Below, piece after piece: positions 35,127-44,088 of a DNA stretch of 64,000 nt; within the stretch, counting starts at the first letter, position 1; the number at the start of each line of letters is the position of its first letter. Origin of the DNA: Sulfurimonas denitrificans DSM 1251 (GTDB lineage Bacteria; Campylobacterota; Campylobacteria; Campylobacterales; Sulfurimonadaceae); NCBI RefSeq assembly GCF_000012965.1, contig NC_007575.1:1550001-1614000 (forward strand), read 5' to 3'. The translations under genes were made by a program, and so were the position numbers. Under the pieces are notes generated by a model. The model was not told where the DNA came from. It saw only the letters and a program-made list of their open reading frames with translations, and did not search any database.

Positions 35127-36377
35127 TTAAGCAATCTCTTCTAACTTGAGTGGTGTTGCCACACTTACATGTGTGGTAACGCTATATCTATTTCTCCCGC
35201 CCTCTTTTGCACTATATAGCATCTCATCAGCTTTATTTATTAGAACCTCTTCATCCAAAGCGCTATCGGCTACACAACATGCTACACCTATTGAAATTGT
35301 CAAAAATGTATCTATTTTAGATGCTTCATGCTCTATCTTAAGCTCTTTGACTGCGTTGCAAATATTTTGGGCGGTTGTTATTGTGTTTACCTCTGAAGTG
35401 TCTGTAAGTAAAATTCCAAACTCCTCACCACCTAATCTAAAGACAAAATCACCAGGACGTTTTAAGAGTTCTTTAAAAACAGAAGCTACACTCTTTAGTG
35501 CAACATCTCCTTTTACGTGTCCATAAGTATCATTGTATTGTTTAAAATAGTCAATATCAAGCATCATAAAAGTAATATAGGTATAGTTTCTTTTTGCTCT
35601 TTTTATCTCTCTCTCATAAACCATATTAAAATATCTTCTGTTATGCAAAGATGTTAATGAATCTGTATATGAAGCGCTCTCAAGCCTTTTGTTTGCGATT
35701 TTAAGTTTTTTACTAGCTATCTCAAGAGCATTTTGATCACTTTGAATACTTTTGAGCACATAGTATGAGATGACCATAACACCAAAAATAATAATCAATA
35801 AAAAAGTTCCTATTTTATACAAAGAGGAGTCATAAATGAGTAAAAAGTTTTTTCGCTCATACTTTGCTAAATCTATCTCATAATTAATAAGTTTTTTTAT
35901 TACTTTATGTACATCTGTTACTCTTTTTTCTATCTTATCAAAGGGTAAATTTTTTATATCATCTGCACTATCTAATGCCGTATATATATTTAAGAAAAAG
36001 TCATTTGTATTTTTAATCTCACCTGAGACGTACTCTACATAAGCAATCTCTTCGTCTCTTTTAAAGTGAGATTTATAACTTTTCCATTCGTTCTCAATTC
36101 TCTCTACTGAGAGTTTAATCTCTGAGCGAATTTCATCTAAAGGTATTTTCATCTCTTTTGCTTTGTATGCTGTGCCTAGGTTATCATGATATGTTTGAAG
36201 GATTATATTTAGCTCATTTACTGGCACAAATGAGCCAAAATAGAGTGCATCAAATTTTTTTTTCATTGAGTTTATATTTATTGCACCCATTATTCCAATG
36301 AGCAGCAAAGATATAGAGAGAATGATAAATATAGAAAAAAGTTTACTTCTTAATTTTAGTGTATCAATAAAATTCAT
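35127..36377 (-). CDS. Membrane diguanylate cyclase
   Basis: 416-residue inner-membrane c-di-GMP synthase. TM1 is about 12-34 (LFSIFIILSISLLLIGIMGAI), a periplasmic helical domain of about 150 residues resembles four-helix-bundle MCP-type sensors, and TM2 is about 186-208 (IGTFLLIIIFGVMVISYYVL). A short coiled coil leads to GGDEF: DSLTSLHNRRYFN and FRLGGEEFGILL (GGEEF active site), with RPGD five residues before it as the inhibitory I-site. It is a single gene, divergent from the nap-linked Crp/Fnr regulator gene. The input signal is unknown. Confidence 0.92.
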   Translation of the reverse strand: MNFIDTLKLRSKLFSIFIILSISLLLIGIMGAININSMKKKFDALYFGSFVPVNELNIILQTYHDNLGTAYKAKEMKIPLDEIRSEIKLSVERIENEWKSYKSHFKRDEEIAYVEYVSGEIKNTNDFFLNIYTALDSADDIKNLPFDKIEKRVTDVHKVIKKLINYEIDLAKYERKNFLLIYDSSLYKIGTFLLIIIFGVMVISYYVLKSIQSDQNALEIASKKLKIANKRLESASYTDSLTSLHNRRYFNMVYEREIKRAKRNYTYITFMMLDIDYFKQYNDTYGHVKGDVALKSVASVFKELLKRPGDFVFRLGGEEFGILLTDTSEVNTITTAQNICNAVKELKIEHEASKIDTFLTISIGVACCVADSALDEEVLINKADEMLYSAKEGGRNRYSVTTHVSVATPLKLEEIA

Positions 36378-36497: not shown

Positions 36498-37163
36498 ATG
36501 AATGAAAAGTTAAATTACATCAAAGAGCTGTCGTTTTTTAACTCTCTTGATGATGAAAAATTAAAAATCATCGACTCTATTTCAAAAATAACCACCTACG
36601 CAAAAAACTCTATACTTTACTATGAAAATGATACTAACAATAAAATATTTTTTTTAGTTTCAGGTCTTATAAAAGTATATAAGATTGATAAATTTGGAAA
36701 TGAGATCTTTCTTTACTATATCTATAAAGATTCTCTAATCTCAGAACTTACAACACTTAGCAGCGATATGATTTACTGCTTTTCAAATGCCGAACCTGTA
36801 GAGGAAAGTATTATTTTAGAGGTCGATTTTTCAGAGTTCAAAAAAGAGTTTTTATCAAAAAACATACTAAATAATGAGTTTATAAATGAAATTTTGACAA
36901 AAACTCATCAGCTTCACTGCGTTGTAAACAGAGAACTTGTTTTTGATGCCACCGCTAAAGTGGCATTTACTCTCTGTAATGACTTAAAAATGTTTAACTC
37001 TCTAAAACGACATGAAATCTCTTTTATGCTTCATATTCAACCTGAGACTCTATCAAGAGTTTTAAACAAGCTTAAAAGAAACTCTATCATTGACATTGAA
37101 AATTCAAATGTTATAATCCTAAATAAAGAGATGTTAAAGAGCGCATATAAAGGTAATATGTAA
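36498..37163 (+). CDS. Crp/Fnr-family regulator next to the nap operon
   Basis: 221-residue DNA-binding regulator. The N-terminal cyclic-nucleotide-type beta-barrel (about 10-130, IFFLVSGLIKVYKID) precedes a long helix and a C-terminal winged helix with the recognition helix PETLSRVLNKL. The E-x-x-S-R spacing matches Fnr/Dnr-type proteins that read TGAy half-sites. The N-terminal cysteine cluster of oxygen-sensing FNR is absent, and Cys residues are few. The sensor gene begins directly after the stop. The TGAC-N4-GTCA site before napA is a plausible target, so nitrate, nitrite or NO control of nap is inferred. Confidence 0.88.
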   Translation: MNEKLNYIKELSFFNSLDDEKLKIIDSISKITTYAKNSILYYENDTNNKIFFLVSGLIKVYKIDKFGNEIFLYYIYKDSLISELTTLSSDMIYCFSNAEPVEESIILEVDFSEFKKEFLSKNILNNEFINEILTKTHQLHCVVNRELVFDATAKVAFTLCNDLKMFNSLKRHEISFMLHIQPETLSRVLNKLKRNSIIDIENSNVIILNKEMLKSAYKGNM

Positions 37164-38171
37164 ATGATAAAATCAAATAAAATTAGTACAAAAATAAAGT
37201 TCATCGGTGCGCTTCTTATATTTCTAATTGCTTCTGTTATCGGAACAACCATATATCTAAACCATCAAAATATCAAAGATGCTCTTGTAATAAATATTGC
37301 TGGAAAACAGAGGATGTTAACACAAAAAATTTCAAAAAATATCTTTTATATTCATTATCAATCTTCACATGATTTTAGTGAACTAGATGATGCTTGTAAT
37401 GAGTTTGTAGATGGATTAAATACTTTAAAATTTGGGAATTTTGACAAGCAAATCTCTCCTTTTCATACATATGAAATCTCTATACAAATTTCAGAAGTTG
37501 ATAAATTATGGGGTCAGTTTTATAAAAATGTACAGAGTTTTAAACTTTTAAAAAATGCGCAAATCAAGGATGAGAACAGTATAAATAGTATCGTTGCATC
37601 TATTTATAAAGAGAATAGTGTGCTTCTAAAAAATGTTGATAAATTAGTTACGCTATATACAAATCATAGTGAAGAGAAAACCAATTTTATTAAAAACTTT
37701 CAATACACATCGGCGTTTATTCTCTTTGTACTATTTTTATACTCTCTTGCTCAACTAAAATCTATCGAATCACATGTAGATTCATTTATGCAGTACTCTA
37801 AAATGTTAGTTGGAAATGAAGATATATCTAGTCTCTCACCTATAAAACTAGAAGCGGAGAGCGAAGTTGAGATTAAAGAGGTAAGTGACACCATAAACTG
37901 TTTCATAAGCAAGATAAACTCAGCAGTTGAGTACTCTAATGAAGCACTTCTTCAATCTCAAAAAGCTTCATCAAAACTAGAAGAGCTCACAGATGAATTT
38001 GATACTATTTTAGCAGAAATCAAGGGTAATTCATCCGCTTCAACACATCTAAATAATAGCGAGGATATGGTTATAGAATCTACTGAAGTGCTAATTAGTT
38101 CAACAAAAAAATTGACAAACCTTAAAGCAGAGCTCGATAAGCTTATCAAAAGTTGCCAAGAATTAAAGTAA
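37164..38171 (+). CDS. PilJ/NarX-like sensor membrane protein without output domain
   Basis: 335 residues. TM1 is about 12-32 (FIGALLIFLIASVIGTTIYL). The periplasmic domain (about 33-175) opens with INIAGKQRMLTQKISKN, the PilJ/NarX P-box-like signature associated with nitrate/nitrite binding. TM2 is about 178-196 (SAFILFVLFLYSLAQL). The remaining cytoplasmic 135 residues are helical (HAMP/coiled-coil-like, EVSDTINCFISKINSAVEYS) and hold no kinase, GGDEF, MCP or DNA-binding motif. It starts directly at the base after the Crp/Fnr stop (TAAATG). A role as nitrate sensor signalling by protein contact is inferred. Confidence 0.8.
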   Translation: MIKSNKISTKIKFIGALLIFLIASVIGTTIYLNHQNIKDALVINIAGKQRMLTQKISKNIFYIHYQSSHDFSELDDACNEFVDGLNTLKFGNFDKQISPFHTYEISIQISEVDKLWGQFYKNVQSFKLLKNAQIKDENSINSIVASIYKENSVLLKNVDKLVTLYTNHSEEKTNFIKNFQYTSAFILFVLFLYSLAQLKSIESHVDSFMQYSKMLVGNEDISSLSPIKLEAESEVEIKEVSDTINCFISKINSAVEYSNEALLQSQKASSKLEELTDEFDTILAEIKGNSSASTHLNNSEDMVIESTEVLISSTKKLTNLKAELDKLIKSCQELK

Positions 38172-38403
38172 TCTTAAAAAAAGTCATTTCTATCTCTTAT
38201 CTTCATTCTTACTGTTACTTATATTTACACTATTATAAATATTAAACAAATCTTAATTAAAAAAACTACTTCTATGACTAAAGTCAAAGATTTTATCATC
38301 CTAAAATGCTACTATTTATTATGTTAATGGGCACCTTAACAAAAAAGTAAGGTTTATTAACTTACAAAATTCGTGTTTCTAAAATCATTTAAGAGGAGAA
38401 AAT
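38172..38403 (+). promoter_or_regulatory. nap promoter region with Fnr-type box
   Basis: The 232-base region before napA holds ATGAC-TAAA-GTCAA (38274-38287), a Crp/Fnr-type dyad, and an extended -10 TGC-TACTAT (38307-38315). With a start near 38322 the dyad centre lies at -41.5, the class II activator position. A second dyad, GTTAA-N8-TTAAC, spans 38323-38340 at the inferred start and might bind another regulator. The napA ribosome-binding site is AAGAGGAG. All is read by eye; the start site is not measured. Confidence 0.65.
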
Positions 38404-41226
38404 ATGTCACTTTCGAGAAGAGAATTTCTTAAAAGTTCAGCGGCAGCATCTGCAGCAGCAGCGATTGGTATGAGTGTACCAGCAGAGCTAGAGGCAGCAG
38501 CGGCTACGGCTGAGGGCGACTGGAGATGGGACAAGGCAGCTTGTCGTTTCTGCGGTACAGGTTGTGGAATTATGATGGCAACAAAAAACGGTAAAATTGT
38601 TGCTGTTAAGGGGGATCCAGCGGCTCCAGTAAATCGTGGTCTTAACTGTATTAAGGGTTACTTTAATGCTAAGATTATGTATGGTGCAGATAGATTAACT
38701 CAGCCATTACTTAGGGTTGATGCGAATGGAAAATTTGATAAGCAGGGTAAATTTGCTCCAGTATCTTGGAAGAGAGCTTTTGATGAGATGGAAATCAATA
38801 TCAAAAAAGCACTCAAGCATGGCGGTCCAGAATCAGTTGGTATTTTTGCTTCAGGGCAATATACAATTATGGAGGGCTATGCAGCTCAAAAGATGATGAA
38901 GGGTGGATTCCGCTCAAACGCATTTGATCCAAATGCTCGTCACTGTATGGCATCTGCGGTTGTTGGTTTTTATCAAACATTTGGTGTTGATGAACCTTCT
39001 GGCTGTTACGACGATATTGAATTAACAGATACTATTGTATCTTGGGGTTCAAACATGGCTGAGATGCACCCGATTTTATGGTCTCGTGTAACTGATAGAA
39101 AATTATCAGACCCAGATCGTGTAAAGGTCGTATCTATCCAAACTTATACACACAGAACTTCAGATATTGCAGATATTGAGATTATATTCTCTCCAAATAC
39201 TGACCTTGCACTTTGGAACTATATCGCTAGAGAGATAGTTTATAGAGATGCGGCTGAGGGAATTATTGACTGGGATTTCATAAAAAAACATACTATCTTT
39301 ACAGCTGGACCAGTAAATATTGGTTATGGTATGAGAAGAGCTGGTGAAAAATCTCTAACAGATGGTAAATATACTCCGCTTGAGATGGAGATTATCTCTA
39401 AAGAGATGAAAACTACTGTTTCTAAAAAAGAGGGTCCTGCGCTAGAACCATATGGTTATAAAGCTGGTGACACAATGGAGCATACTGCTGGAACTTTAGG
39501 ACACTGGGAAATCTCATTTGAAGATTATAAAAAATCTCTTGAGCCATATACACTAGAATATACTGCAGCAATTGTAAAGGGTGACCCTGATGAAAATATG
39601 GAGCTTTTCCAAAACAAACTTCAAGCATTAGCAAATCTTTATATTGAAAAAAATAGAAAAGTTGTATCTTTCTGGACAATGGGTATGAATCAACATACAC
39701 GTGGTACTTGGGTAAATACACTTTCATATAATGTTCACTTTATGCTAAACAAACAAGCTGTTCCAGGTTCTGGAGCGTTCTCTTTAACAGGACAACCATC
39801 AGCTTGTGGTACTGCTCGTGAAGTTGGTACATTTACACACAGACTTCCAGCTGATATGATGGTTGCAAATCCTGCGCACAGAAAAATCGCTGAGAACAAG
39901 TGGATGGTTCCTGAGGGAACAATAAATCCTGTTGGAACTCAAGATATCATGAGAATCCACCGCGATATTGAAGATGGTCTAATCAAATTTGCATGGGTAA
40001 ATGTTTGTAATCCTTACCATGACACTGCAAGTGCTAGTCACTGGATTAAAGCAGCTCGTGAGATGGACAACTTTATTGTTACTTCTGATGGATACCCAGG
40101 TATCTCTGCAAAAGTTTCAGACCTTATCTTGCCTTCTGCTATGATTTATGAGAAGTGGGGAGCTTATGGAAATGCTGAGCGTCGTACACAACATTGGAGA
40201 CAACAAGTTCTTCCAGTTGGTGATGCGATGAGTGATACATGGCAGTGGATTGAGCTTTCAAAAAGATTTACAGTAAAAGAAGTATGGGGCGAATGGGCAC
40301 CATCTGGCTCTAGAAAAGAAGCTCTTCCTAGCGTTATAGAAAAAGCTAAAGCTATGGGGTATAACGAAAATACAACTATGTTTGAAATTCTTTTTGCTAA
40401 TGATATTGCAAAATCTTACAAACTTGATCAAAATGATCCAATTCAAAAAGGTTATGATAATACAGAAGGTTACGGAGACAGCAGAAAAGTTGTTGGAAGT
40501 GATGGAAAAGTATTTGAAGGTTATGGCTTCTTTATTCAAAAATATCTTTTTGAAGAGTATGCTGCATTTACACGTGGACACGGGCATGACCTTGCACCAT
40601 TTGACATGTACCATAAAGTTCGTGGTCTTAAGTGGCCAGTTGTTGATGGTAAAGAGACTCAGTGGAGATTTAACGCTAAGTACGATCCTTATGCTGCAAA
40701 AGCTACAAAAGAGAGTGGTAACTCACATGCATTCTACGGAACTATTGCAAAAGCTCTAAAGAGCGGAGATTTAAAAGGTATGGATAAAAATACTGAACAA
40801 AAATCATTAGCTAACAAAGCTAAAATCTTTGCTCGTCCATACATGGATCCACCAGAAATGCCAGATGACAACTACGATGTTTGGTTATGTACAGGTCGTG
40901 TACTAGAACACTGGCACTCAGGAACAATGACTATGCGTGTACCTGAACTATATCGTGCAGTTCCAGAAGCTCTATGTTATATGAATCCAAAAGATGCTGA
41001 AGCTAAAGACCTTAAACAAGGTGCTCTATGCTGGATTGAATCTCGCCGTGGTAAAGTTAAAGCTAGGGTAGAGACTCGTGGTAGAAACAGACCTCCAAGA
41101 GGATTGGTCTTTGTTCCATGGTTTGATGAAAAAGTATTTATCAACAAAGTTTGTCTTGATGCAACATGTCCAATGTCAAAACAGACAGACTTTAAAAAAT
41201 GTGCTGTAAAAATCTATAAAGCGTAA
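38404..41226 (+). CDS. napA: Periplasmic nitrate reductase catalytic subunit
   Basis: NapA reduces nitrate to nitrite in the periplasm with a bis-MGD molybdenum cofactor and one 4Fe-4S cluster. Of 940 residues, SRREFLK is the Tat signal motif with AEAAAA-like cleavage near 35. CRFCGTGC (C47, C50, C54) and NCIKG (C82) bind the cluster. RHCMASAV supplies the molybdenum Cys near 182. Further MGD-binding motifs include [10 protein letters not shown] and [17 protein letters not shown], and the C-terminus has [15 protein letters not shown]. The length is the longer campylobacterial form. It heads napAGHBFL. AAGAGGAG precedes ATG 38404. Confidence 0.98.
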
Positions 41227-41245
41227 CCAATAAATTAAAGGAGAG

Positions 41246-42070
41246 ATGGCTATTTTGACTAAAAGCCATCTAAAGAAGATGAATAACAAAATGCAAAGTG
41301 ATAGAAGAAAATTTATTCTTAGAATGGCTAGAGGAGCTGGTATTGCTGCTTTAGGTGGATTTGTATGGAGTGCGTATGTTGATGAAGTAACAGCATCACA
41401 GCTCTTGCTTCGTCCACCTGGTGCCATAAAAGAGGAAGATTTTTTAAAAACATGTATAAAGTGTGGGCTTTGTGTTGAAGCTTGTCCTTATAATACTCTA
41501 TTGCTTGCAAAACCAGGTGATCATAAACCTCTAGGGACTCCATATTTTATTCCTAGAGATGTTCCTTGTTATATGTGCCCAGATATTCCTTGTGTTCCTG
41601 TATGTCCTACAGGTGCACTTGATGAAGCTAGTGTTACAACTAATGGCAAACTAGACATAAATATATCAGAGATGGGACTTGCAGTAATTGACAGAGAGAC
41701 ATGTATTGCTTTTTGGGGAATTCAGTGTGATGCATGTTATAGAGCATGTCCAATTTTGGGTCATGCTATAAGTGTTGAATACAACAAAAACGAAAGAACT
41801 GGAAAACATGCATACTTAACACCTGTTGTTCATGCTGATGCATGTACTGGCTGTGGACTTTGTGAAAAAGCTTGTGTAACTGAGAAAGCTTCTATTTTTG
41901 TACTTCCAAAAGAGGTTGCAATGGGTAAAGCTGGAAACTATTACATCAAAGGCTGGGATAAAAACGATGAGAAACGTTTAGAAGATGCTACTGAGATAAA
42001 AACAAAAACAGAAATAAGCAAAGAGAGTGCGATTGACTCTTTAAATGATACGGGAGGTTTATACAAATGA
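41246..42070 (+). CDS. napG: Nap quinol dehydrogenase ferredoxin subunit NapG
   Basis: 274-residue Tat-exported ferredoxin that, with NapH, passes electrons from menaquinol toward NapA. The twin-Arg motif is SDRRKFILRMARGAG. Four 4Fe-4S motifs follow: CIKCGLCVEACP, CYMCPDIPCVPVCP, CDACYRACP and CTGCGLCEKACV. ATG 41246 is very close to GGAGAG; TTG 41255 or ATG 41279 would give a more usual spacing and a more usual short n-region before RR, so the exact start is open. It overlaps napH by four bases. Confidence 0.95.
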   Translation: MAILTKSHLKKMNNKMQSDRRKFILRMARGAGIAALGGFVWSAYVDEVTASQLLLRPPGAIKEEDFLKTCIKCGLCVEACPYNTLLLAKPGDHKPLGTPYFIPRDVPCYMCPDIPCVPVCPTGALDEASVTTNGKLDINISEMGLAVIDRETCIAFWGIQCDACYRACPILGHAISVEYNKNERTGKHAYLTPVVHADACTGCGLCEKACVTEKASIFVLPKEVAMGKAGNYYIKGWDKNDEKRLEDATEIKTKTEISKESAIDSLNDTGGLYK

Positions 42071-42894
42071 GTATGCTTTGGAATAAATACCGTTATCTAT
42101 TTTTTAGAAGAACAACTCAAATATCTCTACTGTTTTTATATTTTGGTGCAAATGCTTGGGGTTGGACTCTTCTAATGGGGAATCTTAGCTCATCGTCGCT
42201 GCTTAAAACAGTTCCTCTAAGCGATCCATACGCTGTGCTACAGATGATTGCAGCAGGTGCTATTATAGCTACTGACTTGGTAATAGGAGCTCTTATTATA
42301 ACTATTTTCTATCTTATAGTTGGAGGTCGTGCTTTTTGTAGTTGGGTTTGCCCAATTAACTTAGTAACCGACGCAGCCGCACTTTTAAGAAGACAAATTG
42401 GTGTTGATAGTTTTGCAAAAAAACAGCCCGCAACGCGTAATATGCGCTATTGGGTTTTAGCTCTTAGTTTAATTATATCATTTGCTATGGGTGTAGCAGC
42501 ATTTGAGTTTATATCACCAATATCTATGCTTCACAGAGGCATTATATTTGGTATTGGTTTTGGATGGGCAGCAGTGCTCATTATTTTTCTTTTTGACCTT
42601 TTAGTTTTAAAAAATGGTTGGTGTGGGCATATATGTCCGCTTGGTGGATTTTATTCACTTGTTGGTAAATTTAGTTTGATTAGAGTACATCACACACAAG
42701 AAAACTGCACGCTTTGTATGAAATGTAAAGTTGTTTGTCCAGAGGGGCAAGTTCTTTACATGATAGGCAAAGAGACTATTCCTGTTCTTTCAGGAGAGTG
42801 TACAAACTGTGCTAGATGTATAGAAGTTTGTGATGATGATGCTCTTAATTTTTCAATCAGAAAACTAGTAAAAAATAATAAATCGGGAGAGTAA
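42067..42894 (+). CDS. napH: Nap quinol dehydrogenase membrane subunit NapH
   Basis: 275-residue inner-membrane protein with four to five spans that oxidises menaquinol together with NapG. Features: FCSWVCPINLVTD and CGHICPLGGFYSL (the paired CxxxCP motifs of NapH), then two cytoplasmic 4Fe-4S motifs CTLCMKCKVVCPEG and CTNCARCIEVCDD. It overlaps napG by ATGA and is followed by napB after one base, consistent with tight operon translation. Confidence 0.96.
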   Translation: MSMLWNKYRYLFFRRTTQISLLFLYFGANAWGWTLLMGNLSSSSLLKTVPLSDPYAVLQMIAAGAIIATDLVIGALIITIFYLIVGGRAFCSWVCPINLVTDAAALLRRQIGVDSFAKKQPATRNMRYWVLALSLIISFAMGVAAFEFISPISMLHRGIIFGIGFGWAAVLIIFLFDLLVLKNGWCGHICPLGGFYSLVGKFSLIRVHHTQENCTLCMKCKVVCPEGQVLYMIGKETIPVLSGECTNCARCIEVCDDDALNFSIRKLVKNNKSGE

Positions 42895-42895
42895 A

Positions 42896-43606
42896 ATGAA
42901 AGCAATGGGTAAAATAACGATTGGTTTAGTTACTGCTGCACTACTAATGGTTGGTTGTGTAAGTGAGAGCGCTAAATCTACTCCACAAAAAGCTGTGGAT
43001 AAAACTGTAACTGAAGAGTCTTTGGGCTTAAGAAAAACTGACTTATATACCGAAGATGCTACGGTTGCTTCTAAAACTGAGTATAGATCAGCTCAAGCTA
43101 CTACAAGTACGAAGATAAAAAGAGCATTTCAAGATGCTCCACCTATGATTCCTCACGATACAGTTGGAATGCTTCCAATAAAATCGGAAGATAATAGATG
43201 TGTAACATGTCACATGCCTGAAATCGCTGGAGCAATGGGTGCTACTCCAATTCCTGTTTCACACTTTACAGATTTTAGACCAAGAGCTAAACTTGTAAAT
43301 AATGAGGTAGTTATTGCAACTGATACGTATAAGAATGAGACACAAATTGTTAAAAAAAGTGATTTACAAAATGCTAGATTTAACTGTAATCAGTGTCATG
43401 CTCCACAATCTCAAGGAAATTTACTTGTAGAGAACACTTTTGAACCAGTATATACTTCAAAAGATGGTGCAAATAAATCAAGTTGGGATGAGAGTAAATA
43501 TACTAAATCATTAGATACAGTTATTGGTGGTCCAAGTTTTGTAACAGAGGGTGACTTAGCAAATAAAAATTCTAAAGCTGGCAGCCTAGAAGGTTCAGCT
43601 CATTAA
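42896..43606 (+). CDS. napB: Nitrate reductase diheme cytochrome NapB
   Basis: 236-residue periplasmic diheme cytochrome c feeding electrons to NapA. Two CxxCH sites are seen: CVTCH (102-106) and CNQCH (164-168), with distal His candidates MIPHDTVGMLP and VSHFTDFRPR as in NapB. The N-terminus (KITIGLVTAALLMVGC) looks like a lipoprotein signal with Cys21, though Met at -3 is atypical. It is longer than usual NapB because of an 80-residue linker between signal and heme domain. The stop is overlapped by napF by one base. Confidence 0.95.
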   Translation: MKAMGKITIGLVTAALLMVGCVSESAKSTPQKAVDKTVTEESLGLRKTDLYTEDATVASKTEYRSAQATTSTKIKRAFQDAPPMIPHDTVGMLPIKSEDNRCVTCHMPEIAGAMGATPIPVSHFTDFRPRAKLVNNEVVIATDTYKNETQIVKKSDLQNARFNCNQCHAPQSQGNLLVENTFEPVYTSKDGANKSSWDESKYTKSLDTVIGGPSFVTEGDLANKNSKAGSLEGSAH

Positions 43607-44088
43607 TGCAAAGAAGAGAGCTATTTAGCTCTCTTGCTTCTTCACTAAAGGGTGAAAAAAAGCAAGAGAAGCAGTTAAGACCGCCTTATTTTGGTGATGA
43701 ATCTCTTTTTCATAATGAGTGTAACAGATGTGATGGAGTATGCGCCACTGTTTGTGAAGAAGATATAATTAAAATAGCAGATGACAAAACTCCGTATATA
43801 CTATTTTCTTATAATGGTTGTACCTACTGCGACAAGTGTACTGATGTTTGTGAGTTTGGCGTTTTAAAATTAGAAGATAAAAAATACTTAAACGCTATAA
43901 TTACCATAAACAGAGACAAATGTTTAAGTTGGAGTCATACCATGTGTTTTTCATGTAAAGATCCCTGTTTAGACAATGCCATAGATTTTAAGGCTATGTT
44001 TATGCCAGAGATAAACAATAAATGTACATCATGTGGGTTTTGTATAAGCAGATGCCCTACTGATGCGATTGATATAAAGGTGCTCTAA
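43606..44088 (+). CDS. napF: Ferredoxin-type protein NapF
   Basis: 160-residue cytoplasmic iron-sulfur protein of the NapF type, thought to help load or activate NapA before export. It starts QRRELFSSLASSLKGEKK, typical of NapF, with cluster motifs CNRCDGVCATVCEED, CTYCDKCTDVCEF, CLSWSHTMCFSCKDPCLD and CTSCGFCISRCP. It lacks a Tat signal with a hydrophobic core, consistent with cytoplasmic location. It overlaps both neighbours by one base. Confidence 0.93.
   Translation: MQRRELFSSLASSLKGEKKQEKQLRPPYFGDESLFHNECNRCDGVCATVCEEDIIKIADDKTPYILFSYNGCTYCDKCTDVCEFGVLKLEDKKYLNAIITINRDKCLSWSHTMCFSCKDPCLDNAIDFKAMFMPEINNKCTSCGFCISRCPTDAIDIKVL

Follow-up and report, generated by a model that had tools for sequence, protein, structure and literature searches.

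A PilJ-domain membrane sensor paired with a Crp/Fnr regulator: a candidate phosphorylation-free nitrate switch in Campylobacterota

In Sulfurimonas denitrificans DSM 1251, the gene for a PilJ-domain membrane sensor that lacks an enzymatic output directly follows the gene for a Crp/Fnr-superfamily regulator and, judging from comparison of genome sequences, these two genes form a module that extends across the phylum Campylobacterota. We propose that the pair is probably a two-protein nitrate switch that operates without phosphate transfer, in which the sensor would control the neighboring Crp protein by direct contact through a hairpin tail. The component families are already known; the coupling of a PilJ sensor to a Crp/Fnr regulator is a new variation, of which we found no description in the open-access literature searched. 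If the proposal is correct, a nitrate-sensor head has been wired to a Crp-family regulator instead of a kinase, and nitrate respiration is turned on by a PilJ sensor with no phosphate relay of the usual kind, in a group that plays a central part in the denitrification and N2O reduction of vents and sediments.

The window analyzed is a 64,000-nucleotide stretch of the 2,201,561-bp S. denitrificans genome, and coordinates refer to it unless a locus is named. The regulator gene, of the NssA type, occupies positions 36498..37163 on the + strand; the sensor gene (37164..38171, +) begins on the base directly after its stop codon and encodes 335 aa. napA starts at 38404, 232 bp downstream of the PilJ open reading frame (ORF), and opens napAGHBF (38404..44088, +), which was recognized with NCBIfam models and is probably the operon under control; the genes after it, up to 45921, are putatively napL and napD, named by gene order. 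A sequence-only reading of this DNA had put the PilJ gene against the Crp/Fnr gene and just before nap, and both placements are correct. A divergent 4HB-GGDEF gene (35127-36377) adjoins the pair here and in many Sulfurimonas genomes; most other families lack it at this place.

The sensor protein matches the Pfam PilJ model over residues 31-134 of its periplasmic part (37254..37565, +; E=5e-18, 65.6 bits against a cut-off of 26.6), and no other Pfam domain scores above its cut-off. No kinase, chemoreceptor-tip, cyclase or DNA-binding domain was detected in the ORF. The histidine phosphotransfer and ATPase domains gave no Pfam or NCBIfam match and the methyl-accepting (MCP) signaling domain no Pfam match, which places the protein outside both the NarX/NarQ kinases and the chemoreceptors; the NarQ model aligned weakly with residues 2-252 (20.5 bits versus a cut-off of 553). 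The segment NIAGKQRMLTQK is flanked by hydrophobic spans at residues ~7-34 and ~183-201, giving the order TM1, PilJ four-helix sensor, TM2, HAMP-like segment and helical hairpin. AlphaFold2 modeled the four-helix sensor with confidence as continuous with TM2, followed by a HAMP-like break, for which Pfam made no HAMP call in the ORF, and a cytoplasmic hairpin of low confidence (pLDDT ~45-60). In Foldseek searches the model matched McpN (6gcv), the nearest solved sensor, and sensor-TM-HAMP fragments of NarQ over ~255 columns; TM-scores of 0.77-0.78 by target against NarQ 5jgp and 5iji place it in the sensor-TM-HAMP fold.

Within the PilJ domain, residues 43-54 (INIAGKQRMLTQ; 37290..37325, +) fit exactly the N-box pattern of McpN, [IVL][ND]xAGxQRML[ST]Q, the nitrate box defined previously (PMC6381276), so that the protein carries both the domain and the box of McpN-type sensors. 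Its arginine, R50, is present in 41/41 members with a single PilJ domain and 65/65 with two (106/106 nap-type plus double members), and G47 is likewise kept in every nap-type and double-PilJ member. We consider the nitrate box strong evidence. The claim of the sequence-only reading, a nitrate-sensor-type PilJ protein with its signature between two membrane spans and no output domain, is borne out by the domain match, the exact box and the flanking spans. The double version, a protein of ~450 aa with tandem PilJ domains, occurs in many Campylobacterota families (L052-L064, L096-L155), in most cases with a nitrate-type box in both domains, and has the same type of Crp partner.

Several known systems resemble parts of this arrangement. 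NarX and NarQ (of NarXL and NarQP) share the layout of a TM, a PilJ-type four-helix sensor, a second TM and HAMP, as well as a nitrate box with an essential arginine; in contrast to the S. denitrificans protein, they possess dimerization/phosphotransfer and ATPase domains, and their partner is the response regulator NarL or NarP rather than a Crp/Fnr protein. McpN of Pseudomonas aeruginosa has the PilJ ligand domain and N-box but ends in a chemotaxis signaling domain, whereas the cytoplasmic part of our protein comprises ~135 aa, including a short hairpin, and has no signaling tip. FecR-type transducers of FecI offer a parallel for the proposed output, in that a signal from the periplasm is handed on when a membrane protein touches a transcription factor in the cytoplasm; there the factor is a sigma factor, and fold and ligand route differ. 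For Thermus DrpA/DrpB with DnrT, a nitrate signal from periplasm or membrane has likewise been proposed to reach a regulator of the Crp family with no two-component system involved; however, no PilJ domain or nitrate motif is reported, the genes form a separate operon downstream of nar, and the mechanism proposed is indirect (PMC6282519).

The pairing itself is the second line of strong evidence. PilJ homologues were found in 149 of 397 genomes of the phylum at E<=0.001, many of them full length and 45-77% identical, and the ORF is therefore not a chance reading frame. The neighborhood survey that the sequence-only reading had called for gave a uniform answer: in every one of the ~115 Campylobacterota loci whose upstream sequence is available, a count in which some genomes are sampled twice, the PilJ gene comes immediately after a Crp gene of the same orientation, and the two genes mostly overlap or are separated by <=20 bp. 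One apparent exception (L118) was discarded as an ORF-calling artifact. The contexts vary: pairs are found at nap, at nrfHA with a CcsB-type maturation gene, at clade II nosZ with nosD and among unrelated genes. In Sulfurospirillum (L134:995-6290) the pair follows nrfHA, the CcsB-type gene and a gene for a 216-aa protein without a Pfam match. When genome contigs were scanned with the double-PilJ alignment, the full-length matches were from Campylobacterota; distant matches in other phyla covered sensor parts alone, and no Crp neighbor was called upstream of these. That the PilJ gene always directly follows one type of regulator suggests that its product tells this regulator when nitrate is present.

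The regulator combines a cNMP-binding fold with a Dnr-like helix-turn-helix (IQPETLSR) by Pfam, is 44.7% identical to the nap-adjacent homologue of Wolinella succinogenes and groups with it in the tree, features that assign it to the NssA type. Its best PDB match is DNR (3dkw), an NO/heme regulator, which raises the alternative that the genes are merely cotranscribed, the Crp protein sensing a ligand of its own (NO via heme, as in DNR) and the PilJ protein sensing nitrate independently, in a role that is minor or has nothing to do with the regulator. Unpaired Nss proteins, which must function without a PilJ partner, lend this some weight. Against it stand the invariance of the pairing and the tree, in which a single branch (SH-aLRT 98) splits paired Crps from their unpaired relatives, with residues specific to the paired group (N97, R145, L163, N167, Q181 and R194); moreover, NssA of W. 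succinogenes is reported to respond to nitrate and not specifically to NO (PMC6682613). We consider this alternative unlikely.

Distances among Crp proteins co-vary with those among PilJ proteins beyond what NapA accounts for (partial r of 0.77 for the tail and 0.78 for the sensor, p=0.002, n=25), and within the genus Sulfurimonas a nap-type pair is present in 18/25 NapA+ versus 0/6 NapA- genomes (p=0.002), although phylogenetic clustering inflates several of these statistics. Two Sulfurimonas genomes have nap without any pair (G266 and G311), five have nap with just a distant, nos-type pair (G009, G015, G027, G037 and G129), and outside the genus many napA genes occur without a nap-type pair. 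An apparent excess of Crp co-variation in the tail over that in the sensor (partial 0.64 versus 0.11) arose because single, double and box-less sensors had been pooled; when each homogeneous group is taken by itself, the tail co-varies with Crp no more than the sensor does, and since the excess vanishes there we do not use it as evidence for the tail.

The sequence-only reading had described the cytoplasmic part as only a helical coil. The helical character stands, and the description is too modest: residues 200-335 (37761..38168, +) comprise the HAMP-like segment and a helical hairpin (235-286 and 293-333), a candidate docking tail whose last ~40 residues contain the motif SED(I/M)xIxSxExLx6LxxLxxxL (SEDMVIESTEVLISSTKKLTNLKAEL; residues 299-324, 38058..38135, +). 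This motif is common to single-PilJ, double-PilJ and nosZ-linked members, and E300, I304, L317 and L324 are invariant in a 33-row tail alignment. Its conservation bears on the suggestion that the protein is a ligand buffer, or else the degenerate remnant of a sensor kinase or chemoreceptor that has lost its output and simply binds nitrate. The want of a known output domain would fit such an origin, yet motif and length are maintained across the phylum, even in nos-linked copies that could not use a nitrate box; because a buffer would not need the tail, buffering finds no support, and we rejected it together with decay as highly improbable.

The tail also bears on a different possibility, that the PilJ protein is a nitrate coreceptor for another signaling protein (a chemoreceptor array, a histidine kinase or the 4HB-GGDEF protein) and just shares an operon with Crp. 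HAMP plus a helical hairpin is reminiscent of a truncated chemoreceptor, a search with the tail profile, whose strong matches were solely PilJ proteins of 311-494 aa, found weak matches in chemoreceptors of ~530 aa, and the GGDEF gene is a frequent neighbor in Sulfurimonas. Against this, the chemoreceptor signaling tip is absent, and the Crp gene, unlike the GGDEF gene, is always there, its adjacency to PilJ kept in nos and nrf contexts as well. A coreceptor role thus appears decidedly unlikely. Direct contact with the adjacent regulator, as the sequence-only reading had suggested, is the best-supported reading of the comparative data: the genes are inseparable, the paired Crps stand apart, the tail motif is conserved, the partners co-vary beyond NapA and operators are present at likely targets. 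Neither the co-variation nor the fold model of a Crp-PilJ read-through fusion proves such contact; the model had a pTM of 0.41 and gave no confident relative placement, and a different alignment raised the confidence of the tail just slightly.

A direct-contact switch might work as follows. Nitrate in the periplasm would bind to a membrane dimer at the interface between its two PilJ domains, as the exact box and the fold suggest, and binding would shift the helices through TM2 and the HAMP-like segment as in the homologous NarQ. The short cytoplasmic hairpin with the SED motif would then be the output, contacting the NssA-type Crp and altering its activity; the Crp might be set free from the membrane or, alternatively, be kept in an active form. 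The regulator would finally act at TTGAC-N4-GTCAA sites upstream of napA, which would agree with the NssA regulation reported in W. succinogenes and with the operator counts.

The consensus of the Nss operator is TTGA-N6-TCAA (PMC11539149). With <=1 mismatch and within 250 bp upstream, it was found at 53/53 pair-linked napA genes, compared with 19% in shuffled sequences, and at 11/20 napA genes in genomes without a pair at the same tolerance; the difference between linked and pair-less napA is significant (p=2e-6), with shared ancestry weakening the operator p-values. In the S. denitrificans window the predicted site is ATGACTAAAGTCAA (38274..38287, +), which taken alone is not above chance, so that its significance comes solely from the comparative test. 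Exact operators precede 8/9 of the pair-linked nosZ genes.

S. denitrificans itself has a second Crp-PilJ pair, directly upstream of clade II nosZ (L032:7526-9118, corresponding to G000:C1 ~1367525-1369117), and nosZ-adjacent second pairs occur in other genomes as well. This pair has an exact TTGAC-N4-GTCAA operator and a sensor without a nitrate box, which Pfam PilJ did not match at E<=0.001. Among nosZ-linked sensors R50 is replaced by K in 9/9 and G47 by N in 8/9, and their Crp partners form one group in the tree (support 100). In NarX/NarQ, the arginine-to-lysine change abolishes the response to ligand (PMC8199190). The duplicated pair has kept tail and regulator but not the box, and so would answer to something else or to nothing. 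It is possible, though on balance doubtful, that the phosphorylation-free pair is the general switch for nitrate in Campylobacterota and that its nosZ copy, with a rebuilt ligand site, senses another denitrification signal, perhaps nitrous oxide or a respiratory-chain cue.

These observations connect with published genetics in W. succinogenes, where the cell is reported to respond to nitrate, NO and N2O through NssA, NssB and NssC and to require NssA for nitrate induction of nap (PMC6682613). The genome that we take as strain DSM 1740 (G167; 2,110,355 bp) encodes three homologous Crps: one has a PilJ partner beside nap, one is unpaired, and one is unpaired and directly precedes nosZ. By position and relatedness, the PilJ-paired, nap-adjacent gene appears to be NssA. 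The S. denitrificans system shares with the Nss regulators the Crp protein, the nap-adjacent NssA-type gene and the operator, but differs in its PilJ partner, which the accessible published accounts, treating the regulators alone, do not mention; a review states that the mechanism by which Nss senses nitrate and N2O in Campylobacterota is still to be found (PMC8139620). The Crp-PilJ pair supplies the nitrate branch with a specific sensor candidate, and does so in an organism whose Nss genetics has been published, and box-less nosZ copies provide a natural comparison for what the other Nss branch senses. As a minor feature of the window, a sigma-70-like promoter, a perfect 12/12 match with a TG extension that is not conserved in relatives, lies within the 3' end of the Crp gene (37090-37117), 46 bp before the PilJ start.
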